From contig SNWL01000006.1 of assembly GCA_004362315.1 (NCBI GenBank), positions 1-64,000 on the forward strand: DNA of 64,000 nucleotides. Reading direction: 5' to 3'. This document shows positions 1 through 22,929 of this stretch, one piece after another (position 1 is the first letter of the stretch; each line of letters opens with the position of its first letter). A model generated the notes under the pieces. It had not been told where the DNA came from and searched no databases. It was given only the letters and a program-made list of their open reading frames with translations. A program made the position numbers and the translations under genes. Source of the stretch: Mycobacterium sp. BK086. Lineage in GTDB: Bacteria; Actinomycetota; Actinomycetes; Mycobacteriales; Mycobacteriaceae.

Positions 1-369
1 TTCCATCACGATCTGACGGATCTCGGATTCCTTCTTCTTCGTGTGCTCACGAAGCGGGAACGCGGTGTTGTCGAACAGGTTCATCGACCCGAACAGCGCA
101 CCGTCCTGGAACATGACGCCGAACAGGGTGCGGATCTCGTAGAGCTCCTTGGCCGAGCACTCGATGATGTTCGTGCCATCGACGATGATCTTGCCCCGCT
201 CGGGGCGCAGCAGACCGATCAGCGACTTCAAGAACACCGACTTACCGGTACCCGACGGGCCCAGCAACACGCTGACCTCACCGGCGGGGATATCGAGGGT
301 CACGTCCTCCCAAATTCGCTGGGAACCGAACGACTTCGTCAACCCCTCGACCTGAATAGCAATACCCAC
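1..369 (-). CDS. mceG: MceG (Mkl) ABC transporter ATPase, N-terminal part, cut by the window edge
   Basis: This is the ATPase that powers Mce/YrbE lipid and sterol importers at the inner face of the membrane. Only the first 123 codons are present. They begin at a GTG and show a Walker A motif GPSGTGKS at residues 37-44, followed by the Q-loop segment (MFQDGALFG) and the stretch PLREHTKKKESEIRQIVME, all very close to M. tuberculosis Mkl (Rv0655) as I recall it. The Walker B, signature motif and C-terminal extension lie outside the window. It follows the MPT51-like gene by 22 bases on the same strand, at the far end of the mce series. Known mceG genes are generally unlinked to mce operons, so the position is unusual. 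The family is certain; whether it is the only mceG of the genome is unknown. Confidence 0.9.
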   Translation of the reverse strand, partial: MGIAIQVEGLTKSFGSQRIWEDVTLDIPAGEVSVLLGPSGTGKSVFLKSLIGLLRPERGKIIVDGTNIIECSAKELYEIRTLFGVMFQDGALFGSMNLFDNTAFPLREHTKKKESEIRQIVME

Positions 370-391
370 GCCAGATCCCCACTGTGACTTT

Positions 392-1291
392 CTATTTGAT
401 GGAAGCGGTCAGATCGCCGGACATCGAGGCGAGCTGGCCCGCCCACGTACTCCAGTCATGCTGACCACTGACCGGAAAATCGAAGTGCCCGTTGCGCCCG
501 CCTATCGTGCGGAAGTTCGCATAGAAGGAGCGGTTACTGCCCTGGGCTTGATCGCAGTATCCGACCATCGCCGCCGGATCGCTGCATGTCAGCGTCTGCG
601 GACTGAATATCCACAGCCGAGTGTTGTTGTCCACCAGCAGTTGTGAATGCACGTACGGGTCATGCCACTTCCACCGGCCGAACTGAGCAGGACCCCACAT
701 CTGGTTGGTGTCCACCCCGCCGAAGGTCATCATCCCGTCATGCAGGGCACCGTTGATGAACGTGTTCGACGGGTACAAGAACCCCGACATCGATCCCGCA
801 TAGCGAAACCGGTTCGGGTAGAACGCAGCAAGAGTCAACGCCGCGGTGCCGCCCTGGGCAGCACCGACAACAGCGTGCCCACCGGCCACCAAACCCTTGT
901 TGGCGGTCAGCCAATCCGGTAACTCGCTGGACAGGAAGGTCTCCCACTGTTTGGAGCCATCCTGTTCCCAGTTCGTATACAGGCTGAACGCTCCGGCGGC
1001 CGGGGCCACCACCGACACACCCTTACCTGCGAGAGTGTCCATGGCATGGCCCGCACTCACCCAGTTGCTGACGTCGGGTCCCGCATTGAACGCATCCAAC
1101 AGAAACACCGCATGCGGACCGCCCGATTCAAAGGCGACCGGGATGTCGCGGCCCATCGCCGCCGACGGAACCAGCAGATACTCCACCGCAGCAGCACGAG
1201 CGGGCGGCATACCCATCACGGTGCAGGTCATCACGATGACGGTCGCGGCCATGACCGCGACTGCACGCGACTGTCGCAATGAGATCCCCAT
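392..1291 (-). CDS. MPT51/FbpD-like secreted alpha/beta-hydrolase-fold protein without catalytic serine
   Basis: A 299-residue secreted protein with an N-terminal signal peptide (hydrophobic residues about 10-33, ending ARA-AA). It aligns along its whole length with mycobacterial MPT51 (FbpD), a relative of the antigen 85 mycolyltransferases. Shared stretches include MGRDIPVAF, LLDAFNAGPDVSNWV, YTNWEQDGSKQW, GSMSGFLYPSN and GHFDFP. At the nucleophile elbow it reads GAAQGG, so the serine of antigen 85 is missing, as in MPT51; a non-enzymatic, ligand- or matrix-binding role is therefore expected. It lies 6 bases after the VOC gene and just before mceG, in the same direction as the mce genes. 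Why an MPT51 paralogue sits in a steroid/Mce transcription unit is unclear. Confidence 0.88.
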   Translation of the reverse strand: MGISLRQSRAVAVMAATVIVMTCTVMGMPPARAAAVEYLLVPSAAMGRDIPVAFESGGPHAVFLLDAFNAGPDVSNWVSAGHAMDTLAGKGVSVVAPAAGAFSLYTNWEQDGSKQWETFLSSELPDWLTANKGLVAGGHAVVGAAQGGTAALTLAAFYPNRFRYAGSMSGFLYPSNTFINGALHDGMMTFGGVDTNQMWGPAQFGRWKWHDPYVHSQLLVDNNTRLWIFSPQTLTCSDPAAMVGYCDQAQGSNRSFYANFRTIGGRNGHFDFPVSGQHDWSTWAGQLASMSGDLTASIK

Positions 1292-1297
1292 GATCGT

Positions 1298-2191
1298 TCA
1301 GAACCCCATGTTGGCCACAAGTGGGCGACCGGCCGTGTAGCCGAAGACATCATCTAATTCCACAGGCAAGGAGAGGATTTCGAATTCGCACCCTGGGTCG
1401 ACGAAGTATGTTCCGACGATATCGCCGACGTTGGTTATCTGCGTCGTTTGATGGCCGTCGGCCAACAGTCGTTCGATCACCTCGGCGGCAACGCGGCCCT
1501 CTCTTGAACCGAGACCCACGTTGACGATCCCGTAGTCGAAGGTACGTCGCGGTCGCTGCCCTCCGTCCGCGTACCCGGATTCCGGACAGTTGAGGACCTC
1601 GATGGTGAAATTGCCGATGTGGGCGAGGAAGCTGCGCTCTGCTGCCTCACGACCCCGCCACATCGGATCCCGCAGTTCGACCCGGACGCCAAGAGTCTCC
1701 TCGTAGAGACGTTGCGCGGCAACGATGTCGGTCACCCGCTGCGTTGCGTACACCACATCAGGTCCGCGTCGCTCCGTCGCTTCGATGGCCTCAATGGTGA
1801 TACCGGAAAACGGATCCCGGAACGCGATCCGCCGTGATCCCAGCGAGCCCGTAACGGTGGCGTGGGGCTCGGGGCCGAAGTCGGCCAGGCCGCGAAGCAC
1901 CCTGTCGAAATCCGCAACCGCGATACCGATCCCCGCCCACCCGATCTGATCGCCGACACCCAACGGCGCCGGAACGGGATTGGTGTACTCGAACAGTTCC
2001 AACTGAAAGAACGGCCGCGACCCAACCATCCACCACACCAATGCCCGGGCGCTCGGCTCGAGGCCCGCGACGCGCATGGCCTCACCCCACATAGCGCTGC
2101 CGCCGGCATTCGCGAAGCCGAAGAGGTTCTCGAATAGCCGCAGACTGCCGGCCAGATCAGACGTACTGATCGACACCTGGCAGACACTCAT
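1298..2191 (-). CDS. Two-domain VOC (glyoxalase/bleomycin-resistance fold) protein
   Basis: This 297-residue protein appears to be two VOC modules in tandem. The first (about residues 1-135) begins CQVSISTSDLAGSLRLFENLFGF; the second (about 140-290) contains TDIVAAQRLYEETLGV and ends with DPGCEFEILSLP. VOC proteins bind a metal and act as dioxygenases, isomerases or lyases, but the metal ligands are not obvious here, so no reaction is assigned. The ATG lies 4 bases beyond the stop of the KstD-like gene; upstream in-frame codons would run deep into that gene, so this start is preferred. Tight packing between the KstD-like gene and the MPT51-like gene implies cotranscription. A role in processing a ring intermediate is an inference from context only. 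Confidence 0.75.
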   Translation of the reverse strand: MSVCQVSISTSDLAGSLRLFENLFGFANAGGSAMWGEAMRVAGLEPSARALVWWMVGSRPFFQLELFEYTNPVPAPLGVGDQIGWAGIGIAVADFDRVLRGLADFGPEPHATVTGSLGSRRIAFRDPFSGITIEAIEATERRGPDVVYATQRVTDIVAAQRLYEETLGVRVELRDPMWRGREAAERSFLAHIGNFTIEVLNCPESGYADGGQRPRRTFDYGIVNVGLGSREGRVAAEVIERLLADGHQTTQITNVGDIVGTYFVDPGCEFEILSLPVELDDVFGYTAGRPLVANMGF

Positions 2192-2195
2192 CCGC

Positions 2196-3782
2196 TCAGA
2201 CAGCGTGGTCAACGGAGTCCACTGTGGCAGAAGTGTGAGTGTTGTCCAGCATGTCGAGGACGGCACGGTGACTGAAGACCATGCTGGTGCCGATCGGATG
2301 GCCGCCGCCGGGGTACACGCACCCGCTGGGCGCGGCCATCGTGTTGCCGGCCGCGTACAGACCCGGGATCGGCTGACCGGAAGTGTCGAGCACATGTGCA
2401 TGCTCATCAGTCCGCAAGCCACCCTTGGTGCCCAGATCAGAGAGACCGAAGGCGGCTGCATGGAAGGGGCCCCGGGTGATCGCGACCAGCGGCGCTCCAC
2501 CGTCGAAGGCCACCCGGTCGTACGGTTCGTCGCCGCGGCCGAAGTCGTCGTCGACTCCTCGCTCGACGAAGGTGTTGAACCGGTCGACGGTGGCGACCAG
2601 GTTCTCGGCGGGAACGCCGATCAGTCCGGCGAGCTCCTCCAGGGTGTCCGTGCTGTGCCACAGTCCGGCCGCCTCATACAGCGACCGCTCGACCATCGAC
2701 ACGTTGGTGAGGACTACGGGCGGCAGGTCGCCCGCGCTGTCGTCATAGATCATCCAGTACGGCAGGCCCAACGATCCGGCGTCCAGTCCCGCGATCACAG
2801 TGCGGCCCAGTTGATCGTAGGGCTGCGATTCGTTGACGAAACGTTCGCCATTTCGGTTGACGAATATTCCGCCGGTGAACAGCAGAGCGAACGCGGAACG
2901 CCCGTCCGGATGTGTCATGCCCGGCGCCCACCACGCTTCATCCATCAAATCGGTGTCGGCGCCGACTGCAATGCCTGCCTCCAACGCCTGACCGACGTTC
3001 GATCCGGGCCCCATCGCGTCGCGTGCCGCTCCGGGCACGCGATACTTGGCACGCAGTTCGTCGCTGTTCTCAAATCCTCCAGCTGCCAGCAGGATTCCGC
3101 GTCGAGCGCGAACGGCGTACTGTCCACCCTCCGCGGCAGCATCGACGACGGCACCGACGACCCTTCCGTCCTCCACCACCAGCTGAGCGAGAGCTGTATT
3201 CAGGTGCGTCGTCAGGTTCGGATACTGGCGTCCCGCGACCAGCAGGCGCGCTATCAGCGCCCGGCCCCCGATGAAATAGTCGTCAGGAGGTGCGGTCCCC
3301 AGCCGGTCGGTGTCCAGCGGCCCGCGCACGACTGCGCGCAGATCCTCGGCATCAGATACAGCAAGGGGTTCGGGGGCGATATGGCGCTGGCCGTCTCCAC
3401 GGGCCTTGGGCGCGGTACCGAAGTAGTCGGGCCACGGAAAGACCTGAAACTGCAGGTGCTCATCGGCTTCGAGGTACTCGACCAACGGCGCCCCGGAACG
3501 AACGAACGCCTCCTGAAGGGCAACAGGCGTCCGATCCCCGACCACAGACGTGTAGTACTGCAGAGCGTCCTCGACGGTGTCATCGGTGCCGGCGCGCAGA
3601 AGAACTGGATTGGCGGGGAACCACATGCCGCCGCCGGAGTACGCGGTGGTGCCACCGAACTTGTCGGTCGACTCCACCACGACGACGTCGAGGCCCTCAC
3701 GGGCAGCCGTGTATGCACCGGTTAGCCCGCCCGCGCCGGAACCCACTACCAATACGTCACATTCGCGGCGCCAGTCGACCAT
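2196..3782 (-). CDS. KstD-like FAD-dependent 3-ketosteroid dehydrogenase
   Basis: A 528-residue flavoprotein of the 3-ketosteroid delta-1-dehydrogenase/fumarate reductase family. These enzymes introduce the 1,2 double bond into ring A of 3-ketosteroids, a step needed for ring opening. The N-terminus has the Rossmann motif VVGSGAGGLTGAYTA (about residues 12-26), then GGTTAYSGGGMWFPAN. The C-terminus carries GLYAAGNTMAAP and CVYPGGGHPIGTSMVF, the segment that holds an active-site Tyr and Gly in KstD enzymes. Length and motif order fit the family. The ATG is preceded by GGGAG at good spacing. A 118-base gap separates it from the Mas gene and holds a candidate operator, so it may have its own promoter. 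It could act on another 3-oxo substrate than steroid; the family is firm, the substrate is not. Confidence 0.82.
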   Translation of the reverse strand: MVDWRRECDVLVVGSGAGGLTGAYTAAREGLDVVVVESTDKFGGTTAYSGGGMWFPANPVLLRAGTDDTVEDALQYYTSVVGDRTPVALQEAFVRSGAPLVEYLEADEHLQFQVFPWPDYFGTAPKARGDGQRHIAPEPLAVSDAEDLRAVVRGPLDTDRLGTAPPDDYFIGGRALIARLLVAGRQYPNLTTHLNTALAQLVVEDGRVVGAVVDAAAEGGQYAVRARRGILLAAGGFENSDELRAKYRVPGAARDAMGPGSNVGQALEAGIAVGADTDLMDEAWWAPGMTHPDGRSAFALLFTGGIFVNRNGERFVNESQPYDQLGRTVIAGLDAGSLGLPYWMIYDDSAGDLPPVVLTNVSMVERSLYEAAGLWHSTDTLEELAGLIGVPAENLVATVDRFNTFVERGVDDDFGRGDEPYDRVAFDGGAPLVAITRGPFHAAAFGLSDLGTKGGLRTDEHAHVLDTSGQPIPGLYAAGNTMAAPSGCVYPGGGHPIGTSMVFSHRAVLDMLDNTHTSATVDSVDHAV

Positions 3783-3831
3783 TACAAGACTCCCTACCGA
3801 TACGATCCGCGGATGCGGTAACGGTTCTCAG

Positions 3832-3848
3832 TTTCGTCTGGTGGGAAA
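3832..3848 (-). promoter_or_regulatory. Candidate operator, TTTCC...GGAAA family, upstream of the KstD-like gene
   Basis: Read on the minus strand the site is TTTCCCACCAGACGAAA. It matches the site in the OYE/HsaD divergent region (TTTCCCGCCAGCCGGAAA) except for two substitutions and one missing base. It lies about 50 bases upstream of the KstD-like start codon, where an operator or promoter would be expected. Recognition is by similarity to three other intergenic sites in this cluster; no binding protein is known. Confidence 0.5.
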
Positions 3849-3900
3849 AACACCGGCAATCGCATGTCCGCTGAGCGGTAAGACAATTCGGCGCCGCACG

Positions 3901-4482
3901 CTAGACCGGATCGAAACCGGCGACCCGCCAGCGACCATCCACGCGGTCAAGGGTGACACGCACACTGGACGCGGTACTGATCGGCGCATCGTTGCCCACC
4001 GTCACGGCCTGATTGATGAATAGCAGAGCAACAGCATGGTTTTGACTTGCCGACACCGAGGCAGCGGCCGCTACTGTAGCGACAGCGGCGATCTTCTTCT
4101 CATGCGAGCCGGGTATCACAACGTCGTGAACGAGCGATCGGTACGAGTCCAAGAAAGGACCCGCCAACCGGTCCTGCACCGCCGCCAAATCCTTCTCGAC
4201 GGTGTCGGGCTGGTAGGACAGCATCGCAACCGCGATCTGACTCGCCGCCTGCACGGATTCGACGCGCGCCGACTTCTCCTCGCGCAACCGCGCGTCGGTC
4301 CATTTGGCGAATCCCGCAGCCATGGCCAGTATTACGACGATCGCCGGGAGTACGGCATACACCAGTGTCCGCACCAACCGAGGTCGGACGGGTCGTCGAC
4401 GCCCGCCCTCTACCGGCGCGCCGGGCTCCTCGACTACGGGTGACGCGACTTCGTCGACCGCGATGTCGGTAGATATCGTCAT
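3901..4482 (-). CDS. Mce-associated (Mas) membrane protein, second copy
   Basis: A 193-residue protein of the Mce-associated membrane protein type. A charged, proline/arginine-rich cytoplasmic N-terminus (about 1-37) is followed by one membrane helix (LVYAVLPAIVVILAMAAGF) and an extracytoplasmic domain of about 130 residues with NTF2-like character. It ends VDGRWRVAGFDPV, the usual end of this family. Mas proteins are thought to help assemble or stabilise the Mce1-type complexes. The start is the ATG preceded by AAGGA; the longer reading frame upstream overlaps the neighbouring Mas gene and has no ribosome site. It follows the first Mas gene by 31 bases and is the last gene before a 118-base gap. 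Confidence 0.85.
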   Translation of the reverse strand: MTISTDIAVDEVASPVVEEPGAPVEGGRRRPVRPRLVRTLVYAVLPAIVVILAMAAGFAKWTDARLREEKSARVESVQAASQIAVAMLSYQPDTVEKDLAAVQDRLAGPFLDSYRSLVHDVVIPGSHEKKIAAVATVAAAASVSASQNHAVALLFINQAVTVGNDAPISTASSVRVTLDRVDGRWRVAGFDPV

Positions 4483-4513
4483 GGGAATCCTTGGCTTGTC
4501 GCGCAACTGGTGG

Positions 4514-5080
4514 TCAGGGAACGAACTGGACGCTGGAGATCTTGTAAATATCGCCGCTGCGGTCGACCACAATGCGCATCCGCCAACCATGCTTGGTCGG
4601 ATCGGCTCCCTTGTTGGAGATGGCGACTTGAACGGCGATCAGCGCCTGTGCGGACCGGTCACCGTCGGTCGATTCCAGCGCGGCTTCGCTGATGGTGCCC
4701 GTCGACGTTGACTGCGCCTTTGTGACGACGTCGATGAATGGCTGTGACCGACTCTGGAATTCGTCGTGAAACGTACCCGTCGAGCCATCCAGGATCCGCG
4801 CGACATCGGCCTGAGCATGTTGGTAGTCAATGGTCGTCAGGTTCAGGGCGCCCTGCCGGGCGACCTGTAAGAACACCTGGCCCTCGCGGTCCGCTTGCTC
4901 GGATCGATAGGCGTGGAAGCCTTCCCAGCCGGCGATGGTGGCGAGCGCAGCGGCGGTGAGCAGCAAGATCGCCGCGGCCAACCGCGTCGACCTGCTGCGC
5001 CCCCTTGCTGAGATCGGTTCCTCGGCTACGGCCGCAGCATCGTCTAGTTCGACGCCGGCGGCATCAACATCGTCTGCCAC
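4514..5080 (-). CDS. Mce-associated (Mas) membrane protein, first copy
   Basis: A 188-residue single-pass protein: acidic cytoplasmic N-terminus, membrane helix at about residues 33-50 (LAAAILLLTAAALATIAG), then an outer domain that includes DVARILDGSTGTFHDEF, typical of Mas proteins, and ends YKISSVQFVP. It starts at a GTG that overlaps the last 37 bases of mceF; no in-frame ATG lies nearby, so translational coupling to mceF is likely. The two consecutive mas genes are diverged, not recent copies. Function is inferred from the family: an accessory subunit of the Mce transporter encoded just upstream. Confidence 0.85.
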   Translation of the reverse strand: MADDVDAAGVELDDAAAVAEEPISARGRSRSTRLAAAILLLTAAALATIAGWEGFHAYRSEQADREGQVFLQVARQGALNLTTIDYQHAQADVARILDGSTGTFHDEFQSRSQPFIDVVTKAQSTSTGTISEAALESTDGDRSAQALIAVQVAISNKGADPTKHGWRMRIVVDRSGDIYKISSVQFVP

Positions 5081-6528
5081 TTCTTCTCCTTCGGCGCTTC
5101 CTGTCCGATGTCGGCCTGGGTGACCACCTGACCGTCGGGTCCGATATAGGTTCCCGACGCCGCGTCGTATTGCGCGATCGCCAAAGCCGGGCTCGGCGGC
5201 GGTGTCGCCGCTTCCGGTGCCGCGTCGGCTGGGCCGGGTTGGCGTGCCGCGGAGGCCGGCGGAAGCTGCGGGATGTCCTGACCCGACAACGTCGCGTTCG
5301 GGTCACCTTTCCAGTTGTTGCCATCGTTAAGGGGGATGTACTGCTCGTCGCTTTCGCACATGGCGACTGTGGGCGCCCGCTTACCCGGACGCGTCTCGCA
5401 GGGGATGTTGCGCGCGCCGCGAACGTTGCTCTGTGCGTCTTGCGGTATCCGGCAATAGAGATCGCCCTGCGGCCGGTCTGGAGCATCGGTTTCGACCGCG
5501 GTGCGCCGCTGGGAGGGCGGCAGGAAGCCGGTCGTGCACGGCGCCGGAAGGTTCATGTTGAGATTGAAATCCAAGTAGCTGCCGACGTAATCCTGCTTGG
5601 TGCCGTGGTTGGCCACGACGCCACCCTGCGCCATCGCGATACCCTGCGGGACGAGTACCAACAGTTGTTCGATGTCGTTGCGGTAGGTGACCGCAACCTG
5701 GCCGACACTCACCAGGTTCGACAAGAGCACCGGGAGCGTGGGCTTCAACTCCTCGATCAGCTGGCGCGCCTCCTCGGCACCGGGTCCGCCGTTGTCGACG
5801 ATGCCGGCCACCGCCGTGTCATGGTCGCGGAGCTCCCCGGTGATGGTTGCCAGGTGACGTGCCCACGCCTGGATGGCACTGCCGGTGTCAACTTGCGATC
5901 GGAGCAACGGACCCGACTGGTCGATCAGTGTGGTTATCGACATCAGATTCGCCCTGGCGTCGGACGACAAGGTGGTGGATCCCTTGACGATCCGGGCCAA
6001 TTCGGGTCCGAGGTTGCCGACTGCCGCATAGGACTCGTCGACCGCAGTCTTCAAATTGTCGTGCGGAATAGCCTGTAAACCACGGTTCGCGGCGTCGAGC
6101 AGACCGTCGATCGGCGGTGGTACCGAGGTGCGGCTCAGCGGGATGACGTCACCGTTCTTCAGGGGTGGTGACGTGTCGTCCTGAGGCACCAGAGCCACGT
6201 ATTGTTCGCCGACCGCCGATTGGCTGTGCACCTGGGCATCGACGTTGGACGGGATGCGGAAAGTGGTATCGAGCGCGAGATCCGCAGCGACACTGCCATT
6301 CCCGTTGAGATGGACCGAGGTCACCTTACCGACCTGCGTACCCCGATACGTGACGTTGCCGGTGGGGTACAGCCCGCCGGATTGGGGCAGTTCGATGGTG
6401 ACGGTGTAGCGGCCCAGTCCCGCCATCGCGGGGATCTTGATGTAACCGAAGATCATCACCGCGCCTGCGATAAGCGATATCACAGCGAAAATAGCGAGCT
6501 GGATCAGGATTCGCCGACTCACGTGCAT
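5044..6528 (-). CDS. mceF: MceF, Mce family cell-entry/lipid transport subunit
   Basis: The sixth Mce subunit, 494 residues. It has an N-terminal membrane helix (residues 8-30), then the MlaD/Mce domain (about 38-115, beginning YTVTIELPQSGGLYPTGNVTYRG), a long helical region predicted to form the needle or tunnel (about 120-290), and a proline/alanine-rich C-terminal tail with four cysteines near residues 335-400 that could form disulfides outside the membrane. It ends near WQTMLMPPASN, similar to other mycobacterial MceF proteins. It is one base downstream of mceE and overlaps the first mas gene. Six different Mce proteins are believed to form a heterohexameric shaft that carries hydrophobic substrates across the periplasm to the YrbE permease. 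Confidence 0.93.
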   Translation of the reverse strand: MHVSRRILIQLAIFAVISLIAGAVMIFGYIKIPAMAGLGRYTVTIELPQSGGLYPTGNVTYRGTQVGKVTSVHLNGNGSVAADLALDTTFRIPSNVDAQVHSQSAVGEQYVALVPQDDTSPPLKNGDVIPLSRTSVPPPIDGLLDAANRGLQAIPHDNLKTAVDESYAAVGNLGPELARIVKGSTTLSSDARANLMSITTLIDQSGPLLRSQVDTGSAIQAWARHLATITGELRDHDTAVAGIVDNGGPGAEEARQLIEELKPTLPVLLSNLVSVGQVAVTYRNDIEQLLVLVPQGIAMAQGGVVANHGTKQDYVGSYLDFNLNMNLPAPCTTGFLPPSQRRTAVETDAPDRPQGDLYCRIPQDAQSNVRGARNIPCETRPGKRAPTVAMCESDEQYIPLNDGNNWKGDPNATLSGQDIPQLPPASAARQPGPADAAPEAATPPPSPALAIAQYDAASGTYIGPDGQVVTQADIGQEAPKEKKWQTMLMPPASN

Positions 6529-11332: not shown

Positions 11333-11357
11333 GTCATCGTTCCTTTGCTGGCCACAG

Positions 11358-14429: not shown

Positions 14430-14616
14430 CGCCCGCCCCTTGGCCGTCCGGGTTCGGATCGCTGACTCATGTGACTCCTTGTCTGGCTGCCGCACCACAT
14501 AGGTAGCGCTGCGGGGCAATCACCTTGCCCAGAAGCTGATTTCAACCATTCGATGTGGGCGGTGTTGCCTGCATCACAATCGAGACTAAAAGCGACCCAG
14601 GACGCCGCATAGGCTG

Positions 14617-15497: not shown

Positions 15498-16444
15498 CGG
15501 GTCACATCCTTGAGAGCCGACTCGGCCTTCAGCGCTGCAAGAGGTTCGCTGCCCGACCAGTCGTGACCCCAGTAGCTGTCGGCCGAGATCTCCTCGGCGC
15601 AATAGAAATTGGTGTCCACCTGCCAGCCCTCGGTTCCGAACTCGATATCCCAGCCGCCCGGTGCGCGCACGTAGAAGGACACCATCTTGTCGTTGGTATG
15701 CCGGCCGAGGGTTGAAGACACCGGGAATCCGTGTTGCGCCACCCGGTCCAGCGCGCGCCCGACAGCATCTAGCGTGTCGACCTCGACCATGATGTGGACC
15801 AACCCGGGCGGCCCCACCGAAGGGGCTGGGCACAACGCGAGGCTGTGGTGCCGGCGGTTGATGCCGAGGAACCGCACCCGTTGCGGTGGCACCCCCAACG
15901 GCAGCGGCAGCCGGAAGGCGCCGCGGGGAAGGAAACCCAGAACCTGCGTGTAGAAGTCGAACACGCCGTCAAGGTCTGATACCGGCAACACAACGTGGCC
16001 CAAACCTTGGGAGGCCGTGACGAACCGAGAGCCGAACGGCGTCACCACCGGGCTGTGGTCCAGCAGCGGACCGTGAAAGATCTCCAGTACGGTGCCCGCG
16101 GGGTCGGTGCACGACACAAGCTCTTCCACACGCCGCTGATCGGCTTCGTCCTGGGAGTGGCGCTGGACTTCTGTGCCGTTCTTCTCCAGGGCGACGACGA
16201 CCTCGTCGAGAGCCCCGCCGTCGGCGACCTGCCAGCCCACCGCGAGCAGCCCGTCCGAATCGGCCGGCGTCACCACGATCCGGGCATGGTGCTCGTCCAT
16301 GCGGAGGTAGAGCGCGTCCGGGTCGGGGCCGGTGCCCGGCGCGAACCCGAGGACGTCATGAGCGAACGATCGCCATCGCTCGATATCGGCCGTCTGGATG
16401 CGGATGTAGCCGAGGGCATTGAGCAGGGGTGGCTGAGAAGACAT
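15494..16444 (-). CDS. hsaC: HsaC-like extradiol (meta-cleavage) dioxygenase
   Basis: A 316-residue type I extradiol dioxygenase related to HsaC and BphC. It cleaves a catechol next to the hydroxyls, in steroid catabolism the catecholic 3,4-DHSA. The fold is two VOC-repeat domains. The Fe(II) ligands are visible at His150 (GLGHVVLP), His217 (LVHIMVEV) and Glu268 (DIEFG). Second-shell catalytic residues also appear: His200 (RRHHSLAL), His249 (GRHTND) and Tyr258 (SFY). The family end WGHDW is present. It lies between the crotonase and the HsaA-like monooxygenase, giving hydroxylase-dioxygenase adjacency as in the hsa operon. Sequence differs noticeably from M. tuberculosis HsaC, so a related rather than identical substrate is possible. 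Confidence 0.9.
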   Translation of the reverse strand: MSSQPPLLNALGYIRIQTADIERWRSFAHDVLGFAPGTGPDPDALYLRMDEHHARIVVTPADSDGLLAVGWQVADGGALDEVVVALEKNGTEVQRHSQDEADQRRVEELVSCTDPAGTVLEIFHGPLLDHSPVVTPFGSRFVTASQGLGHVVLPVSDLDGVFDFYTQVLGFLPRGAFRLPLPLGVPPQRVRFLGINRRHHSLALCPAPSVGPPGLVHIMVEVDTLDAVGRALDRVAQHGFPVSSTLGRHTNDKMVSFYVRAPGGWDIEFGTEGWQVDTNFYCAEEISADSYWGHDWSGSEPLAALKAESALKDVTR

Positions 16445-16492
16445 GTTTTCGCCGTCCGTTCGGTTGGGATAGAAGATTCGCCACTTATGTTG

Positions 16493-17674
16493 TTAGATCA
16501 TGAATTTCATCTTGGGCGGCGGATCGATCCCCAACTGGACCAGCGTCGCGGCTTGGTAGACGGTGTTCGGAACGTGGATCACGTGGTTCAGGCCGGCATG
16601 AACGTCGCGCCAGTACCGCTGCACCGTGCCACCGTGTCGAATCGCGTTGCCCCCTGAGCGAGCGAACAGCGCGTCGACGGCGCCCACAGCACGCCAGGCT
16701 GCACGGACTTGTGTGCGACGCCCCAGCGCGCGCTGCTCGAACGTCGGGGTATCGCCGGACGCGACCAGATTCCACATCCGATCGGCATTGGCGAGCAACT
16801 CATTTCGCGCCGCGTCGATGTCGGCGGATGCCTCGCCGATCGCATACAGCACGATCGGATCGTCGCGTACAGCTGCTCCCATCGCATCCGAGCGCGACCG
16901 CTGGTACTCCAGATGCGCGCTCAGCGCACCCTCTGCGGCACCGATGATCGCGGACGTGATACCCAGCGGGAACACATGAGACCACGGAAGCCGATACAGC
17001 GTCTCCTGACAACCCGCGTCAATCTGGGCCTGCCCGTTCAGCACGTGGTCGCCGTTCATCACGCGGTGGTTGGGCACAAAGGCCTCGCGAACGATGAGAT
17101 CCTTGGATCCGGTTCCCCGCAGGCCGACGGTATCCCACGAGTCCGCGACGATCTCATAGTCCGAGCGGGGCAGAATCACGTGCAGCATGGTCGGCGGCAT
17201 CTGAGGTTTGCCGTCGTAGTCGCCGAGCATTGCCCCCAGAATCACCCACCGGCAGAAGTCGGTGCCAGAAGAGAATTGCCATCGACCGCTGAGCCGATAT
17301 CCGCCGTCGACGGGAACCGCAACGCCCTGAGGCGCGTAGGGTGAGGCAACCCAGGTATTGTCGTCCTCGCCCCAGATCTCCTGTCGTACAGCAGGATCAG
17401 CGAATCCGAGCTGCCAGGGGTGCACCCCCACCACGCCACTGACCCACCCCGCGGCCGGATCCAGGGCGGCCAGTCCCATCACCGTCTCGGCGAACTCACG
17501 CGGCGTGGCCTCCTGTCCGCCATACCGTTTGGGTTGCAGCATCTTGATCATGCCCACGTCCCGGAGCAGCGCCGCTGTGCGCGGGGTCAGCATGCACAGT
17601 CGCTCGGCCTCTTGGGCATCGATCCGGATCTGGTCGGCGTTGGACAGTAGCTTCTCGAGCACCGGTGTCGTCAT
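16493..17674 (-). CDS. hsaA: HsaA-like flavin-dependent aromatic hydroxylase (acyl-CoA dehydrogenase fold)
   Basis: A 393-residue group D flavin monooxygenase. HsaA uses reduced flavin and oxygen to hydroxylate the phenolic steroid 3-HSA. Segments shared with HsaA are GWVSGVVGVHPWQLGFAD, IWGED, FSSGTDFCRWV, the stretch VGLRGTGSKDLIV, and RYWRDVHAG; length matches the family (about 394). The ATG used is preceded by GGAG; an upstream in-frame GTG-type extension lacks similarity. The enzyme requires a flavin reductase (HsaB), and none is encoded in this window. It lies directly before the HsaC-like gene and 36 bases after kshA. Confidence 0.85.
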   Translation of the reverse strand: MTTPVLEKLLSNADQIRIDAQEAERLCMLTPRTAALLRDVGMIKMLQPKRYGGQEATPREFAETVMGLAALDPAAGWVSGVVGVHPWQLGFADPAVRQEIWGEDDNTWVASPYAPQGVAVPVDGGYRLSGRWQFSSGTDFCRWVILGAMLGDYDGKPQMPPTMLHVILPRSDYEIVADSWDTVGLRGTGSKDLIVREAFVPNHRVMNGDHVLNGQAQIDAGCQETLYRLPWSHVFPLGITSAIIGAAEGALSAHLEYQRSRSDAMGAAVRDDPIVLYAIGEASADIDAARNELLANADRMWNLVASGDTPTFEQRALGRRTQVRAAWRAVGAVDALFARSGGNAIRHGGTVQRYWRDVHAGLNHVIHVPNTVYQAATLVQLGIDPPPKMKFMI

Positions 17675-17710
17675 GGCATCACTCCTTCGTTCGGGCTGTC
17701 GCGTCAACGC

Positions 17711-18868
17711 TCAGACGCCAGCAGGCGCTTGATTGGGTGCGGCCATATTCGCGGCCATCTCCGCGTCCCACTTGGACTGGGCAATGTTCAAGTCGACTTC
17801 GAATTCGAAGCGGTTCACCATCTCTGGCAAAACGTCCTCTTCGTCGACATAGAACTGCTCGTACCAGCGACGCAGCTGATATACCGGGCCGTCCTCTTCA
17901 CAGAGCAGCGGGTTGTCCACCCGCGCCTTGTTGCGCCATATCTGGACGTCCTGCATGAAGGCGTCACCCAAGCTGTCGGCGAACTGGGTCGCCATCGCGC
18001 CGGCTTCGTCGTCTGACATGCCGTCGTGCTTCTTCGCGATCGCCCCCCACTGCAGGACAAACGAATTGGGGGTGACCGGGTAGTGGCAGTTGATCAGAAG
18101 GCCCTCGGAGGCAACCCCGCTCGAAGCCAGGGTCTGGCCGTTGACCATGTAGGCCGGTCCGTAGTACGTCGCCGACGACTCCATCAGGAGCCCTTCTTGT
18201 CCGTAATTGCTGTCCAGTTCGATGTCGGGACGGCCCGTCGCTGCCATGAATTGCGATGCGACATGCTTTTCGAAGACGTTCTTGAAGAACGTCGGCTTAA
18301 CCAGATGCACGTAGAAGAAGTGCGCCATGTCGACGACGTTGTCGATCAGCTCGCGACAGTTGGTGCCCTCGACGAGCAGGGAGTTCCAGCTCCAATCAGT
18401 CCATTCCGAGGAGCCGTAGGCGTCGATGACCGGAATGTCGACCGATTCGGGGGGCGGTCGCCTGCGCGGATCGTTCCAGATGAAAACGAGCCCGTTGCGC
18501 TCCATGGTGGGCCACGCCTGGGTGCGCGCCGTCCGCGGTACGCGTCGCGAATACGGAATATTCAAGCACTTTCCGTTACCGCCCCAGCGCCAATCGTGGA
18601 ACGGACAGGCGATGCCATCGCCTTTGATCGTGCCCTGTGCCAGGTTTCCGCCCATGTGCCGGCAGAAGGCGTCGAGAGTGTTCAGTGTCCCATCAGATGA
18701 CTCGAATACGACCAAAGATGTTCCAAACGCATCGATTTGGTGTGGACGGCCATCATGGAAGGTTTTCGCCAGACCAAGGCAGTGCCAGCCTCGCGCGAAG
18801 CGCTCGGGGTTGGTTCCGCCGTCAATCTGTCGAACTTCGTCGGAGAATGCATCCGCATCCGTACCCAC
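17711..18868 (-). CDS. kshA: KshA-type Rieske oxygenase, 3-ketosteroid 9-alpha-hydroxylase
   Basis: A 385-residue Rieske non-heme iron oxygenase. KshA hydroxylates C9 of 3-ketosteroids, which together with KstD opens ring B. The Rieske 2Fe-2S ligands are Cys69-His71 and Cys88-His91 (CRHMGG, CPFHDW). The mononuclear iron site is in NVVDMAHFFYVH (His183, His188) with an acidic ligand in the later MQDVQIW segment. SNYGQEG, INCHYPVTPNSFVLQWG and YQLRRWYEQFYVD match KshA closely. A GTG start is used. Electron supply needs a KshB-like reductase, not present here, although a related stand-alone ferredoxin is encoded about 15 kb away. The 192-base gap upstream contains a candidate operator. Confidence 0.92.
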   Translation of the reverse strand: MGTDADAFSDEVRQIDGGTNPERFARGWHCLGLAKTFHDGRPHQIDAFGTSLVVFESSDGTLNTLDAFCRHMGGNLAQGTIKGDGIACPFHDWRWGGNGKCLNIPYSRRVPRTARTQAWPTMERNGLVFIWNDPRRRPPPESVDIPVIDAYGSSEWTDWSWNSLLVEGTNCRELIDNVVDMAHFFYVHLVKPTFFKNVFEKHVASQFMAATGRPDIELDSNYGQEGLLMESSATYYGPAYMVNGQTLASSGVASEGLLINCHYPVTPNSFVLQWGAIAKKHDGMSDDEAGAMATQFADSLGDAFMQDVQIWRNKARVDNPLLCEEDGPVYQLRRWYEQFYVDEEDVLPEMVNRFEFEVDLNIAQSKWDAEMAANMAAPNQAPAGV

Positions 18869-18971: not shown

Positions 18972-19060
18972 AGTGGTTGCGATGGTGCCGTGAGCATTAC
19001 GGTGAGTCGGCTCAGATGAACGGCGCTGCGTGGTTTGAGGTTTCGATGTGGCAGCTGAGG

Positions 19061-19888
19061 TCAGCGGCCGTCAAAGACAGGCTCGCGGCGGTGCACGACG
19101 GCCGACAGGCCCTCCACGCAATCGGCCGTTCCCGCCAGCCGAACCTCGGCGTTCGCCTCCTGAATCAAAGCAGCTGCGACGCTCGAACCCAGACCGTTCC
19201 ACAACAGGCGTTTGGCCTCGGCGACAGCGAGCGGTGGTGCTTGGGCGAGTGAATTCGCCAGCGCCAGCGCCTCATCGAACACATCGTCGTCCGGGACGAC
19301 TCGGGTGACCAGACCGATCCGTTGGGCCTCGTCGGCGTCCAGTGTCGGATTGGCCAGGACGAGCTCGACCGCCTTGCGGAACCCCACGAGGTGCGTGAGG
19401 GTGACCGTGAGCCCGCCGTCGGGAACCATCCCGACGCCGATGGCACCGGACCTGAATTTCGCCGTCCGCGCAGCGAGAACGAAGTCGCAGCTGCCCACCA
19501 ACCCGAGGCCGCCGCCTCCGGCCGCGTAACCCTGGACGGCGGCGATCACGGGAACGTCGAGCGCGATGATCGCCGCTGTCACCGCCTGAAACCAGCTGGA
19601 TACCTCTTTGACGTGATCGGGTAGTGCGCCACTGTGTACCAGGAAGTCGTTGACATCTCCCCCGGCGCAGAAGTTCCTGCCGAGCCCACGCAAGACCACC
19701 GCCCGAACCGTTCGTGATCCGTGGCACGTCAACAGCGCGGTGTGGAACGCGGTCAACAGCTCCAGATTCATCGCATTGGCCGCTTCGGGCCGGTTGAGCG
19801 AGATCACCGCAACACCGTTGTCGAGCCGCTCAAATATGACCGCGGCTGAGATCGGCTCCTTACCAGCACTATTCACTGTTCCCACCAC
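19061..19888 (-). CDS. Crotonase (enoyl-CoA hydratase/isomerase) family protein
   Basis: A 275-residue crotonase. CoA-binding and oxyanion-hole segments are FCAGGDVNDFL and QGYAAGGGGLGLVGSCDF. The usual catalytic Glu pair is absent (GGGL in place of GGCE and RSG in place of QPE), but an Asp follows in VPDGGLT, a position used by some isomerases. Start is a tandem GTG GTG, 3 bases after the stop of the oxidoreductase gene, so the pair is cotranscribed. Reaction is not assignable beyond acting on an acyl-CoA. Confidence 0.85.
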   Translation of the reverse strand: MVGTVNSAGKEPISAAVIFERLDNGVAVISLNRPEAANAMNLELLTAFHTALLTCHGSRTVRAVVLRGLGRNFCAGGDVNDFLVHSGALPDHVKEVSSWFQAVTAAIIALDVPVIAAVQGYAAGGGGLGLVGSCDFVLAARTAKFRSGAIGVGMVPDGGLTVTLTHLVGFRKAVELVLANPTLDADEAQRIGLVTRVVPDDDVFDEALALANSLAQAPPLAVAEAKRLLWNGLGSSVAAALIQEANAEVRLAGTADCVEGLSAVVHRREPVFDGR

Positions 19889-19891
19889 TGC

Positions 19892-21073
19892 TCATCTCGC
19901 TGCCGGCGTGGTGACCACGCACCGCGTCCCGCGGTAGATCGTCGCCATGCACTTGTTGCAGTGGATGCACAACGACGGCGTCATGCGATCACTGTGGATC
20001 CGGTTGATGAGATCGGGCTCGCGAAGCAACGCGCGGGCCATCGCGACGAAGTCGAACCCCTCGTCCATTGCGAGGTTCATCGCTGCGAGGTTGGTGACGC
20101 CGCCGAGGAGTACCAAAGGCAGCCCGACTTCGGCCCTGACCATCCGGGCCTGAGCCAGGAGGAACAACTCGTGAAAAGGGTATTCCTTCAGGAACAGTCC
20201 CCCGAACAGCTTCAACCCCAACCGAACCAGCGGGGACATCGCTTCCCCCCATTCCCGGATCGGCGCCTCGCCCCGGAACAGATACATCGGGTTGATCAGC
20301 GAACTGCCCACGGTCAGTTCGACAGCATCGAGCGAGCCGTCTTCCTCGAGCCACTTGATCGTCTGGATCGCCTCGTCGATGTGCAGTCCGCCCATGACGC
20401 CGTCGTCCATGTTGATCTTGGCGAGCACCGCACAGCGCGACCCGACCGCGGCCCGTACCGTCTCGGCCGTCTGGCGCGCGACTCTCGCACGATTGGCCAG
20501 TGACCCGCCGTACTCGTCGCGCCGCCGATTGAGCAGCGGGCTCAAGAACGAGCTGGTGAAATAGTTGTGGCCGAAGTGGATTTCGATTGCATCGAAGCCG
20601 ATATCGGCGGCCATCCGTGCGGCCGCACCGTGTGCCAGCCGGATGCGCTCGATATCGGCGCGGGTGGCAGCCTTGACCATCTTCAAGCTCAATGGGTTGA
20701 CGAGGATCGACGGTGCCAGCGCCCGGTATCCGGTCAGCGCTTGATTTCCGACTGCCCCCGCATGGCCGATTTGCGCGGCGGCCGCGGCCCCCTCGGCGTG
20801 GATGGCATCGGTCAACCGCTGCAGCCCCGGTAACGCTTCAGGCCGCATCCAGATCTGTCCATCCTCGGTGCGCCCTTCGGGCGCCACCGCAAGATAGGCC
20901 ACCGTCGACATCCCGACACCGCCGGCACTGACGGCCCGGTGATAGTCAATCAGTGCGTCCGAGACGAGCGCACCCGGTGTCATCCCTTCGAACGTCGCGG
21001 CCTTGATGACGCGATTGCGCAGACTTATCGGCCCGAGTTGCGCAGGTGCCAACACGTCGCGACGAATTGTCAT
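19892..21073 (-). CDS. Old-yellow-enzyme family NAD(P)H:flavin oxidoreductase (dienoyl-CoA reductase-type N-terminal half)
   Basis: A 393-residue FMN TIM-barrel enzyme. It shows AQIGHAGAVG, HFGHNYFTSSFLSPLLNRR and the RDEYGGSLANRAR phosphate-binding region, all typical of the OYE/2,4-dienoyl-CoA reductase group. The C-terminus carries a cysteine cluster CIHCNKCM...C resembling the 4Fe-4S site of dienoyl-CoA reductases, but the protein stops there and lacks the FAD/NADPH half (full enzymes are about 650-670 residues). The start is the ATG with GGAG upstream. It is the first gene of the leftward series and divergent from the HsaD-like gene. A role in reducing an unsaturated ring or acyl-CoA intermediate is plausible. 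Confidence 0.85.
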   Translation of the reverse strand: MTIRRDVLAPAQLGPISLRNRVIKAATFEGMTPGALVSDALIDYHRAVSAGGVGMSTVAYLAVAPEGRTEDGQIWMRPEALPGLQRLTDAIHAEGAAAAAQIGHAGAVGNQALTGYRALAPSILVNPLSLKMVKAATRADIERIRLAHGAAARMAADIGFDAIEIHFGHNYFTSSFLSPLLNRRRDEYGGSLANRARVARQTAETVRAAVGSRCAVLAKINMDDGVMGGLHIDEAIQTIKWLEEDGSLDAVELTVGSSLINPMYLFRGEAPIREWGEAMSPLVRLGLKLFGGLFLKEYPFHELFLLAQARMVRAEVGLPLVLLGGVTNLAAMNLAMDEGFDFVAMARALLREPDLINRIHSDRMTPSLCIHCNKCMATIYRGTRCVVTTPAAR

Positions 21074-21189
21074 GGGGGCTGGCTCCGTTCGTGGCATATC
21101 GCCGTCGCGACGACTCAGTGTCGTCGCGCTGATCGCAAGGGCGTAGCTCGTGATCATGCTAGGCAGGAGCGGGTACGTGGAATCAATCG

Positions 21190-21209
21190 TTTTCCCGCCA
21201 GCCGGAAAC
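21190..21209 (+). promoter_or_regulatory. Candidate operator, TTTCC...GGAAA family, in the divergent OYE/HsaD region
   Basis: TTTTCCCGCCAGCCGGAAAC is the best palindrome of a four-member set: arms TTTCC and GGAAA surround GC-rich centre bases. It lies between two divergent genes that belong to the same pathway, so one protein bound here could control both. A second short palindrome CCTGCGCAGG follows at 21219-21228. Confidence 0.55.
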
Positions 21210-21277
21210 GTGATTTCCCCTGCGCAGGCGAATCAGTAGCTTCGATTCGGCAGTATCGAGCGTGTGAACGGAGTCTT

Positions 21278-22132
21278 GTGCCATCTCAATTGCTCAGCTA
21301 CGAGGCCACCAGTCGGCAGACGTCCGGCGCCTATCCAATGCACTACCACGAAGCCGGTGACGGGTCGCCCCTGTTGCTGCTGCATGGGTCCGGTCCCGGC
21401 GTCAGCGCATGGTCCAACTTCGCAGCCAACCTGCCCGTGTTCGCGCAGACCTTCCGGACACTGTGCCCCGACATGCCCGGCTTCGGTGCGAGCGCGCCTG
21501 TCCCGTGGACGGACGCCTACTCCCGAGTCGCCGCCGATGCGATCCGGTCGTTTCTCGACGATCTGGACATCGACTGCATCGACATCGTCGGTAATTCGAT
21601 GGGCGGCAACGTCGCTGCCGAATTCGCGCTGGCTCACCCGCACCGTGTACGCCGCTTGGTCTTGATGGGCCCGGGTGGACTTGCGGTGAACTCGTTTTCG
21701 CCCGCGCTCAGCGAGGGTGCACGTCGTCTGTTCGAGTTTCTGGCAGCACCCAGTCGAGAACGAATGGTGGCGTGGGTCGAGACAATGGTCAGCGACAGAT
21801 CTTTGATCACCGACGAGCTCATCGACGAACGGATGGCAAATGCCATGCGCCCCAATGTCGTGGCCACCACCGCGGAGATCTTCGCGACCTTTGACAACCC
21901 GGCGCTCAATACTCTGCCACCGTTGTGGGCACGGGCCCGCGAGATCTACCATTCCACGTTGCTGATCTGGGGTCGCGACGATCGAATGCTGCCCTACGAA
22001 GGTGGGCTCTTCCCCTTTCGCCAATTGCCGAAAGCGGAGCTCCACGTGTTCTCCGACTGCGGGCACTGGGCTCAGGTCGAGCGCAAACAGGATTTCGAAC
22101 GCGTCGTCTCCGAATTTGTCACGCGCACTTGA
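21278..22132 (+). CDS. hsaD: HsaD-like meta-cleavage product (C-C bond) hydrolase
   Basis: A 284-residue alpha/beta hydrolase. HsaD/BphD enzymes hydrolyse the C-C bond of extradiol ring-cleavage products, the step after HsaC. The oxyanion segment LLLLHGSGPGVSAWSNF is diagnostic of this group. The triad is Ser107 (GNSMGGN), Asp234 (WGRDDRML) and His263 (DCGHWAQ), at the family positions. The start is a GTG with GGAG six bases upstream; the open frame extends much further upstream but that part has no similarity and covers the divergent control region. It is divergent from the gene series that encodes the matching dioxygenase, and precedes the PadR regulator. Confidence 0.9.
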   Translation: MPSQLLSYEATSRQTSGAYPMHYHEAGDGSPLLLLHGSGPGVSAWSNFAANLPVFAQTFRTLCPDMPGFGASAPVPWTDAYSRVAADAIRSFLDDLDIDCIDIVGNSMGGNVAAEFALAHPHRVRRLVLMGPGGLAVNSFSPALSEGARRLFEFLAAPSRERMVAWVETMVSDRSLITDELIDERMANAMRPNVVATTAEIFATFDNPALNTLPPLWARAREIYHSTLLIWGRDDRMLPYEGGLFPFRQLPKAELHVFSDCGHWAQVERKQDFERVVSEFVTRT

Positions 22133-22179
22133 GTCAGGTATTTCAATGCGCGAGATACCTTCCACCCAAACATATTTCG

Positions 22180-22208
22180 GTACATGAAACATGGAATGGC
22201 CGATGTAC
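22180..22208 (+). promoter_or_regulatory. Inverted repeat GTACAT-N17-ATGTAC before the PadR gene
   Basis: Perfect six-base arms GTACAT (22180-22185) and ATGTAC (22203-22208) lie about 30 bases upstream of the PadR start. PadR regulators commonly bind ATGT/ACAT dyads and repress their own gene, so this is a reasonable autoregulatory operator. A -10-like TATAAG at 22226 would place transcription start almost at the ATG, suggesting a leaderless mRNA. Another dyad, GGTAT...ATACC, lies at 22137-22159 just after the HsaD stop. Confidence 0.45.
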
Positions 22209-22239
22209 AGCGGGCAATGCCGCAGTATAAGGTTACCCA

Positions 22240-22929
22240 ATGACTGAAGTACGCCCTGCGGAGGACGAATACCCGTCCCTCACAGCGAACGGCTGGACCG
22301 TGCTGGGGATCGTTTCCTACAGTAACGAGCTGACCGGATACCAGCTGAAGAAGTGGGCTGATTTCGGCCCGGGATTCTTCTACCTGCATCCCTCGTTCAG
22401 TCAGGTCTACTCCGAGCTCAAGCGCCTAGAAGAAATGGGCCTCGTAGCATCGCGCGAGGACACCACCGACGAATCGAAGTCACGCAGCAAGCGGCTCTAC
22501 CGAATTACCGAATCAGGGCGGCAGGCGCTTCGTAGCTGGTCGAGAAATGCGCCCGTCGAGATGCCGGTTCTCAAGCATCCGATGCTCATGCGCGTCATGC
22601 TCGGCAATTTCAATGCGCGTGAAAACCTTGAGCAAATGCTCACCGAATACATCGAGCGGTCAGACCTGCAATCGCGGCAGGCCGCGCACTACGCGCAGGT
22701 CGCTGCGAGCGATCCGTTCTTCGCCTACGTCTGGATCTCGCTGCGCTGGGCCGAACGCTATTACGCCGCGGAGCGCACCCTGGCGCAAGAACTGCTGAAA
22801 GACTTGGATCTAGCCGTTGCGCGATTCAAAGACACCGGCACCGTCCCCGACTGGTTCCAGGCCCCTCCGCTGTCGGGCGAGCTCGACGGCGAACCCGACG
22901 CCCCGCCGAATCGCGGCCGGCCGCGCTAA
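22240..22929 (+). CDS. PadR-family transcriptional regulator
   Basis: A 229-residue PadR regulator. The N-terminal winged helix (about residues 15-90) contains VLGIVSYSNELTGYQLKKW and FSQVYSELKRLEEMGLV, the typical PadR recognition and wing region. The C-terminal half (NLEQMLTEYIERSDLQSRQ and following) is the helical dimerisation domain of subfamily 2. Ligands of this subfamily are aromatic or hydrophobic molecules. It is the only regulator gene physically inside the 1-23 kb cluster and so is the first candidate to bind the recurring TTTCC...GGAAA sites, or only its own promoter. Its stop codon overlaps that of the convergent acyl-CoA synthetase. Confidence 0.9.
   Translation: MTEVRPAEDEYPSLTANGWTVLGIVSYSNELTGYQLKKWADFGPGFFYLHPSFSQVYSELKRLEEMGLVASREDTTDESKSRSKRLYRITESGRQALRSWSRNAPVEMPVLKHPMLMRVMLGNFNARENLEQMLTEYIERSDLQSRQAAHYAQVAASDPFFAYVWISLRWAERYYAAERTLAQELLKDLDLAVARFKDTGTVPDWFQAPPLSGELDGEPDAPPNRGRPR

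Follow-up and report, generated by a model that had tools for sequence, protein, structure and literature searches.

A rarely found steroid-type gene island with an Mce importer and a linked second mceG in Mycobacterium sp. BK086

Gene content of the island and its counterparts in other genomes

The 64,000-nucleotide stretch analysed here (the window) is the start of contig SNWL01000006.1 of Mycobacterium sp. BK086 (GCA_004362315.1), whose genome comprises 6.93 Mb in 11 contigs; in our contig numbering it is C4:1-64000, and its position 1 is the end of contig C4. With gene calls resting on Pfam, NCBIfam and PDB comparisons, it holds a leftward series that encodes the permeases YrbEA and YrbEB, MceA to MceF, two Mas-like proteins, a KstD-like dehydrogenase, KshA and HsaA- and HsaC-like enzymes, with an HsaD-like gene divergent from them (Table 1). 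An initial annotation of this DNA had described this arrangement, and it is largely borne out, the divergent HsaD-like gene included; the Mas-like genes are assigned by position, and the mceG counted among the series is real but present as a 5′ fragment only. We read the window as carrying an additional, rarely found island, which is likely to take up a steroid-like molecule and open its ring system.

At E≤1e-170, orthologues of the window KshA occur in five of 396 Mycobacterium genomes including its own, i.e. in 4 of the 395 others (denoted by G numbers), with identities of 79% (G018), 76% (G179), 73% (G156) and 63% (G331). G018 is collinear with the window from mceF to acad6 (5.0-39.1 kb), and G179 carries nearly the same genes, sdr2 included (to 40.1 kb), with the side-chain blocks in another order. 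The G156 match spans mceF to fadD, and the old-yellow-enzyme-type gene (OYE) present in G018 and G179 was not seen there; in M. llatzerense, hsaC, ech1 and the mce operon were seen within 21 kb, with a VOC homologue (54%) past mceF on the opposite strand. A chance arrangement is untenable, since gene content and order are kept in other species. The unit had been drawn at 1-22,929, which the matches in G018 and G179 do not bear out: they extend over about 5-40 kb and take in the genes from FadD to the SDRs.

The ATPase MceG, the putative motor of all such importers, behaves differently from the importer. Next to mceF, no Mas, MPT51-like or mceG gene is present in G018 (where the contig runs on for only 2.1 kb), G179 (17 kb) or G156 (17 kb). 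At E≤1e-50, one mceG each was found in G018, G179 and G331, off the island contig; G156 carries a single copy, again off the island contig, plus a fragment on a third contig. We rejected mceG as a part of the conserved island because the other island genomes carry it on other contigs. Thus, of the proposal that a full transporter and its ATPase travel with the ring enzymes, the first half holds: importer and ring enzymes travel together in other species, and MceG does not, the islands of G018 and G179 having no linked mceG.

A KshA search at E≤1e-162 among 397 genomes of the order returned 44 other genomes, all outside the genus, with identities of 58% to at most 64% in this comparison of KshA sequences only, so that a distant version of the island may exist elsewhere. 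Pfam scans of 50 open reading frames (ORFs) up to 55.7 kb contained no integrase, transposase or conjugation gene, the left border lying beyond the contig, and no tRNA was found in the window. G+C content is 63.6% for positions 1-41,200 and 65.0% for the rest, with other stretches of the genome at 62.8 to 68.0%. The lower G+C is a weak sign of foreign origin; the distribution is patchy, and mobility is unproven.

Several assignments deserve comment. The ORF at 392-1291 was rejected as an HsaD-type esterase in favour of an MPT51-like protein, in which GAAQGG aligns to GLSMSG of antigen 85-C (1dqy). Also rejected was the ORF at 21233-22240 (-), which is antisense to the HsaD-like gene and has no family match. 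Pfam gave nothing useful for masA and masB (no match at all for masA); their homologues recur behind mceF in many relatives. The HsaA-like enzyme matches 3afe, which we take to be M. tuberculosis HsaA, the OYE scores 168 bits against a BaiCD model with a cut-off of 825, and the nearest solved relatives of the thiolase-like protein are thiolases. The small protein x33 and the DUF732 protein sit inside the catabolic island, and x33 homologues elsewhere lie between Mas-like and MPT51-like genes, a position that hints at an Mce-associated role. Further right, the window carries an Abi_alpha (abortive infection alpha) domain protein (43548-44264) and a gene pair of the Hen1 and Pnkp-ligase RNA-repair type (48292-52217).

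Table 1. Features annotated in the window, from left to right.
Feature	Position	Strand	Evidence
mceG, second copy (mceG2), 5′ 123 codons, cut by contig end	1..369	-	PDB 8fed_G 223 bits over 1-123
MPT51-like antigen-85 homologue ('est')	392..1291	-	PDB 1r88 430 bits; 22 nt upstream of mceG
VOC/glyoxalase-fold protein (glx), start chosen	1298..2191	-	PF00903 1.2e-6
KstD1-like 3-ketosteroid delta1-dehydrogenase (PRK12837)	2196..3782	-	NF009474 859 bits, cut-off 675; 4c3x 439 bits
Mas-like masA, ORF start probably too far upstream	3901..4590	-	position after mceF
Mas-like masB	4514..5080	-	position after mceF
MceF	5044..6528	-	PF02470; 74% in G018, 72% in Mycolicibacterium sp. CH28
MceE	6530..7672	-	PF02470, PF11887
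MceD	7669..8994	-	PF02470, PF11887
MceC	8991..10319	-	PF02470, PF11887
MceB	10304..11395	-	PF11887, PF02470
MceA	11358..12803	-	PF11887 250 bits; TIGR00996
YrbEB permease, start approximate	12808..13575	-	PF02405 184 bits; 93-94% in G018, G179, G156
YrbEA permease	13659..14519	-	PF02405 186 bits
Enoyl-CoA hydratase ech1, start approximate	14682..15473	-	PF00378; 75-82% in G018, G179, G156
HsaC-like extradiol dioxygenase	15494..16444	-	2zi8 284 bits; NF045631 361, TIGR03213 371 bits
HsaA-like flavin-dependent monooxygenase	16493..17707	-	2or0 498 bits, 3afe 287 bits
KshA, 3-ketosteroid 9alpha-hydroxylase oxygenase	17711..18868	-	PF19298 (KshA_C) 283 bits; 4qdc 545 bits
Enoyl-CoA hydratase ech2	19061..19888	-	PF00378
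Old-yellow-enzyme-type flavin reductase (OYE)	19892..21157	-	PF00724 149 bits
HsaD-like C-C hydrolase, start chosen	about 21278..22132	+	NF045632 (HsaD) 318 bits on ORF 20939-22132
PadR-type regulator	22240..22929	+	PF03551
Acyl-CoA ligase FadD	22926..24515	-	PF00501 213 bits
acad1 and acad2, acyl-CoA dehydrogenase-like	24413..26886	+	PF02770, PF00441
GntR/FCD regulator	26935..27726	+	PF00392, PF07729
Thiolase-like and OB-fold (DUF35-type) proteins	27728..30177	-	PF22691, PF01796
acad3 and acad4, acyl-CoA dehydrogenase-like	30202..32546	+	PF02770, PF00441
Small protein x33 and DUF732 protein	32543..33420	-	x33 66% in G018
Hydratase, IclR regulator, SDRs, acyl-CoA dehydrogenase pair	33484..40090		right end of shared island

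The second mceG and linked copies across mycobacteria

Two upstream and two downstream contexts of mceG were found in the genome, which therefore has two mceG genes. The canonical copy has the order rplL-mceG-rpoB: the gene before mceG at the end of contig C6 and those following it at the start of C5, recognised by eye, are presumably rplL and, respectively, rpoB and rpoC, and rplL and rpoB used as queries mark the standard mceG site in relatives. The second copy, mceG2, is window 1-369 plus a 3′ part; its solved match 8fed_G we take to be M. smegmatis MceG. At the C6 end, 95 bases, starting 9 bases before the start codon, are identical to window 284-378. The 3′ parts of mceG are the starts of C5 and C6, and C6 leads on into other genes than C5. 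The likeliest pairing joins the C6 end through mceG to the C5 start and the C4 start through mceG2 to the C6 start, so that the 3′ end of mceG2 would most likely lie at C6:1-351. The two 3′ pieces share their first 95 bases exactly, show seven silent differences by base 309 and diverge beyond it; the 95-base identities are close to the assembler overlap, also seen at other contig ends, and are lower bounds. For a full-length Mkl-family ATPase, the first 123 codons are clear and the 3′ part is assigned by synteny. Where assembled, mceG2 is a near-duplicate of the genome's own mceG and not a specialised ATPase.

Casali and Riley (2007) reported, in the part of their paper available to us, a single Mkl in each Mycobacterium, at a distance from other transporter genes, and found linked copies of mkl in other genera (PMC1810536). 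The picture of a single, unlinked mycobacterial MceG does not hold here, with two copies in this genome and two or more copies that align over at least 300 residues in 42 of 297 Mycobacterium genomes searched with a full-length MceG query at E≤1e-50. Matches of any length occurred in 288 of the 297, and 51, this one included, had two or more, some being fragments. Contexts were sampled in 90 stretches from 47 of the 50 other multi-copy genomes, covering 92 mceG matches (G078, G171, G182 and some fragments were left out); in G007 both copies have canonical neighbours, which may be contamination.

An MPT51-like gene lies directly upstream of mceG in 13 of the 43 non-canonical full copies (12 genomes). 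The full order mceF-masB-masA-x33-MPT51-like-mceG is present at six of these 13 loci (G037, G090, G132, G252, G262, G273), while G154 and G112 have mceF plus part of this tail, two G291 loci have Mas-x33-MPT51-like with no mceF detected, G286 has x33 and the MPT51-like gene, and G109 and G187 have only the MPT51-like gene, on the same strand. Another five copies have mce or Mas genes nearby (G055, G086, G141, G170, G287). The other 25 have no mce or Mas gene in the stretch sampled (mostly at least 6 kb upstream, less at some contig ends), and two of them (G030, G274) have an MPT51-like gene downstream. Separately, G068 (L229) and G208 (L228) carry tandem mceG genes after rplL, and the M. avium plasmid pP7a (L318) has an mceG, 80% identical, within a catabolic cluster that includes genes of the P450 and ring-hydroxylating dioxygenase types; no mce gene is annotated in the 25 kb of pP7a viewed.

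A phylogeny of the paralogues was run for mceG. In an IQ-TREE tree of 26 rows, from which the broken canonical row of G154 was left out and in which this genome's canonical row is one third filled, the window mceG is sister to its own canonical copy (99/94), and likewise the linked copies of G286 and G252 and one of those of G291. One old lineage of linked copies was rejected: a single clade has an approximately unbiased (AU) test p of 4e-6, the linked group having been set by the neighbour gene and a FastTree tree being known before the test. The starred branches force at least eight label changes, and 10 were found, no fewer than with shuffled labels (mean 8.8). MPT51-linked mceG copies are polyphyletic.

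Third-position identity between linked and own canonical mceG is 89.8% in the window (108 codons), 97.9% in G252, 96.4% and 81.9% in G291, 85.5% in G286 and 60-82% in the other nine. Five of the 14 MPT51-linked copies are closer to their own canonical copy than any other sampled canonical copy is; these samples all come from multi-copy genomes, and closer species may be missing. The same closeness occurs in 2 of 4 mce-linked copies without an MPT51-like gene, and it is not peculiar to linked copies, as 4 of 25 unlinked extras, taken as a control, show it. In G252, a one-contig genome, linked and canonical copies match over 980 bp at 99.6%, from the start codon to short of the stop and with no homologous flank; G291 (99.0%, 978 bp) and G286 (94.6%, 974 bp) follow a like pattern.

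That several linked copies are nearest to their own genome's mceG points to repeated gene conversion or re-duplication, and given the same upstream gene, conversion of the ATPase body would be the economical reading. The alternative, a recent duplication of the whole gene into the site instead of an old copy overwritten by conversion, is a substantial possibility though the less probable of the two. It would account for the near identity to the own canonical copy, the relatives compared being without flank homology, and for the G018 and G179 islands without a linked mceG, and the 4 of 25 alike extras without mce neighbours indicate that fresh duplication happens; yet an MPT51-like gene directly precedes mceG at 13 loci of 12 other genomes, the copies at nine of these loci being clearly older (60-82% third-position identity to their own canonical copy), and insertion into the same slot again and again is less economical than conversion.

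An assembly artefact is highly improbable as the source of the second mceG: every strong mceG piece of the genome does stop at a contig end, and a locus from a metagenome-assembled genome (L060, isolate RYN_181) with mceF-MPT51-like-mceG-rpoB on one contig may be a chimera at two mceG copies, but there are two junctions on each side, the 3′ ends differ silently and in the tail, and the same arrangement is contiguous in G252.

More tentatively, and with somewhat less than even confidence, mycobacteria may carry 'motor-attached' Mce importers, in which a tail of Mas, MPT51-like and mceG genes accompanies the operon and the ATPase is repeatedly overwritten from the housekeeping mceG, so that binding proteins diversify while the motor stays uniform. 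This generalisation is weakened because only 6 of the 13 linked loci have the full gene order.

Ring enzymes, other steroid-type loci and proposed function

The ring enzymes resemble those of steroid catabolism to differing degrees. KshA has its C-terminal domain and matches solved KshAs over nearly its full length at 508-545 bits. The KstD-like enzyme keeps Tyr119, Tyr318, Tyr487 and Gly491 of R. erythropolis KstD1 in an alignment to the solved 3-ketosteroid dehydrogenase 4c3x (with an inferred 20-residue tag offset), the residues given as key ones of KstD1 in a passage of PMC5348764. HsaA, HsaC and HsaD stay under the NCBIfam cholesterol-equivalog cut-offs (363/450, 361/450 and 318/400 bits). 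No KshB, HsaB (flavin reductase), HsaEFG, IpdAB or C/D-ring family appears in the Pfam scans of the 50 window ORFs; the island would therefore have to lean on its host, and its description as self-contained is wrong as far as the scans reach. A window without KshB fits the R. rhodochrous case, in which, according to a section of PMC4064121, one KshB can serve several KshAs.

The genome holds three other strong KshA matches (59, 54 and 52% identity to the window KshA), three other strong HsaC matches (65, 64 and 51%) and 26 MlaE-family permease matches. Since further sets of kshA, hsa and mce genes and a further mceG occur elsewhere in the genome, the window is not the core locus. At C2:300-400k, an mce operon is accompanied by KshA, KstD and an HsaC (C2:390338) with 544 bits against the cut-off of 450, and this looks like the cholesterol locus; the window Mce proteins are 35-41% and the YrbE proteins 59-66% identical to those of this locus. 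At C3:411-468k lie another mce operon, PadR, KshA and two HsaA/HsaC pairs, and the KstD-like gene of C3 is 62% identical to that of the window. The ring-cleaving enzymes, proposed as a second set, are indeed an extra one, but the island is the third steroid-type locus with an importer in the genome.

Elsewhere in the genome, the yrbEA-yrbEB pairs of three other mce operons have 87-97% DNA identity (C3:411780-413420, C7:165303-166943, and C8:14093-14893 with the C8 ends; loci compared L024, L036, L037 and L193), and the mce genes after them fall to about 71% (C3 versus C7), which again suggests homogenisation of a transporter core. Contig C8 (361,490 bp) has identical first and last 89 bases, and yrbEA seems to span the joint; it looks like a circular replicon with mce operons.

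We consider it reasonably probable, judging from gene content, that the whole is an accessory steroid-type catabolic island of about 5.0-40 kb with a left mceG tail adding dosage. A steroid-type ring system is the likely substrate, and the FadD, dehydrogenase, hydratase and thiolase genes suggest that it has a carboxylated side chain. We infer that the YrbE/Mce complex would import a hydrophobic polycyclic substrate, that FadD, the acyl-CoA dehydrogenases, the hydratases and the thiolase/OB-fold pair would shorten the side chain, that KstD and KshA would open ring B, and that HsaA, HsaC and HsaD would hydroxylate, cleave and hydrolyse ring A; products would enter the lower pathway of the host, KshB and HsaB being supplied from elsewhere. 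The left tail of Mas, KstD1, MPT51-like and mceG genes is of a type found beside other mce operons. Wherever both genes are assembled, its mceG2 specifies a protein identical to the housekeeping MceG except for a divergent C-terminal tail. Recent gene conversion or re-duplication would have kept the two alike, and mceG2 would add local dosage and co-regulation, not a new ATPase specificity.

Several observations weigh against parts of this account. The window HsaC scores above the biphenyl-2,3-diol dioxygenase model (371/366), leaving ring specificity open; this model does not settle the substrate, because both C3 HsaC copies pass it too (371-373 versus 366, window copy included), the C2 copy lying below (321). 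No KstD type is common to the orthologous islands, where 34% homologues sit at other positions (G018, G179), and the thiolase is far from the lipid-transfer protein 6ok1 (116 bits only). The looser G331 locus, where hsaC and yrbEA are separated by an MPT51-like gene and mceF is followed by Mas-like genes, raises the possibility that the left tail is older than it seems from the three close islands. Finally, about 100 middle codons of mceG2 are in no contig, as expected of a collapsed repeat, and the contigs are paired by synteny.

It is unlikely, though worth weighing, that the KshA-, HsaA-, HsaC- and HsaD-like enzymes instead degrade a non-steroid polycyclic terpenoid or a bicyclic aromatic acid. 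The scores of HsaA, HsaC and HsaD below the steroid cut-offs and of HsaC above the biphenyl-diol model would fit such a substrate, as would FadD, which scores best with a cyclohexanecarboxylate-CoA ligase model, far below its cut-off (394/792). Against it, the KshAs of R. rhodochrous and M. tuberculosis, which share about 60% identity, both act on 3-ketosteroids according to an excerpt of PMC4064121, and the window KshA is 52-59% identical to the genome's other three strong KshAs and close to the solved ones. In addition, a KstD1-like enzyme with its four key residues is encoded in the same series.

That the island is a C-19+ cluster of the M. smegmatis type, for androgen degradation, is very improbable: its KshA orthologues are very rare (5/396 genomes), the C3 locus is an alternative C-19+ candidate, and we know of no mce operon in C-19+. 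In its favour, PMC5962712 describes C-19+ as a second mycobacterial steroid cluster with kstD, kshA and kshB genes; against it, the text of that paper contains no word starting with mce.

Relation to known systems and significance

The island shares with the Mce4 cholesterol locus an arrangement of YrbEA/B and MceA-F encoded alongside KshA, KstD and Hsa genes; it differs in its Mce proteins (35-41% to C2), in ring enzymes below the cut-offs and in PadR, GntR and IclR regulators of its own. Like the accessory A/B-ring clusters (RHA1 cluster 2, the pRHL1 cluster, C-19+ and pLRE138), it has KshA and Hsa-type genes outside the cholesterol locus. On R. erythropolis pLRE138, Rieske, acyl-CoA-dehydrogenase family, VOC, FAD and alpha/beta hydrolase annotations stand in a row, which we read as KshA, HsaA, HsaC, KstD and HsaD types; unlike in the window, no mce gene is annotated in the stretch viewed, and its KshA is 59% identical.

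For the ATPase, the nearest parallels are the mce operons of Nocardia, Streptomyces and other genera with a linked mkl/mceG, where the gene likewise adjoins yrbE/mce genes. There, however, mkl lies upstream of yrbEA in the portion of PMC1810536 consulted, whereas the window mceG is a second copy downstream, past Mas-like and MPT51-like genes. On pJCM13574 of Mycolicibacterium madagascariense, yrbE, mceA-F, two Mas-like genes and mceG also stand in a row, but this is a plasmid on which no MPT51-like gene was detected upstream of mceG, and the 29 kb viewed have no Hsa-type annotation. On a plasmid of R. opacus PD630, mceG and an mce operon are divergently oriented. Judged by title and abstract start, no paper among the matches listed concerned linked, duplicated or homogenised mceG in Mycobacterium, most subscription journals lying outside the search; PMC9882608 contains both 'mceG' and the word stem 'duplicat'.

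In M. tuberculosis, MceG is common to Mce1 and Mce4 (PMC9947336, in part). Among the Mce systems, only Mce4 is named as importing steroids in the published passages compared, and a passage of a 2016 survey had uptake systems for steroid substrates beyond those of Mce4 as then unidentified (PMC4810484); in parts of a review, cholate is not taken up by Mce4, and cholate metabolites are handled in RHA1 by CamABCD and CamM (PMC8399759). The island described here, both rare and conserved and equipped with its own Mce importer, adds a defined new candidate for steroid uptake. With its linked mceG, the genome breaks with the view that a mycobacterium has one unlinked MceG, and organisms with two copies offer a way to test whether the ATPase is shared. 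If the motor-attached reading is true, the binding proteins would evolve towards new lipids, in this case a non-cholesterol steroid, around a motor that is held constant.

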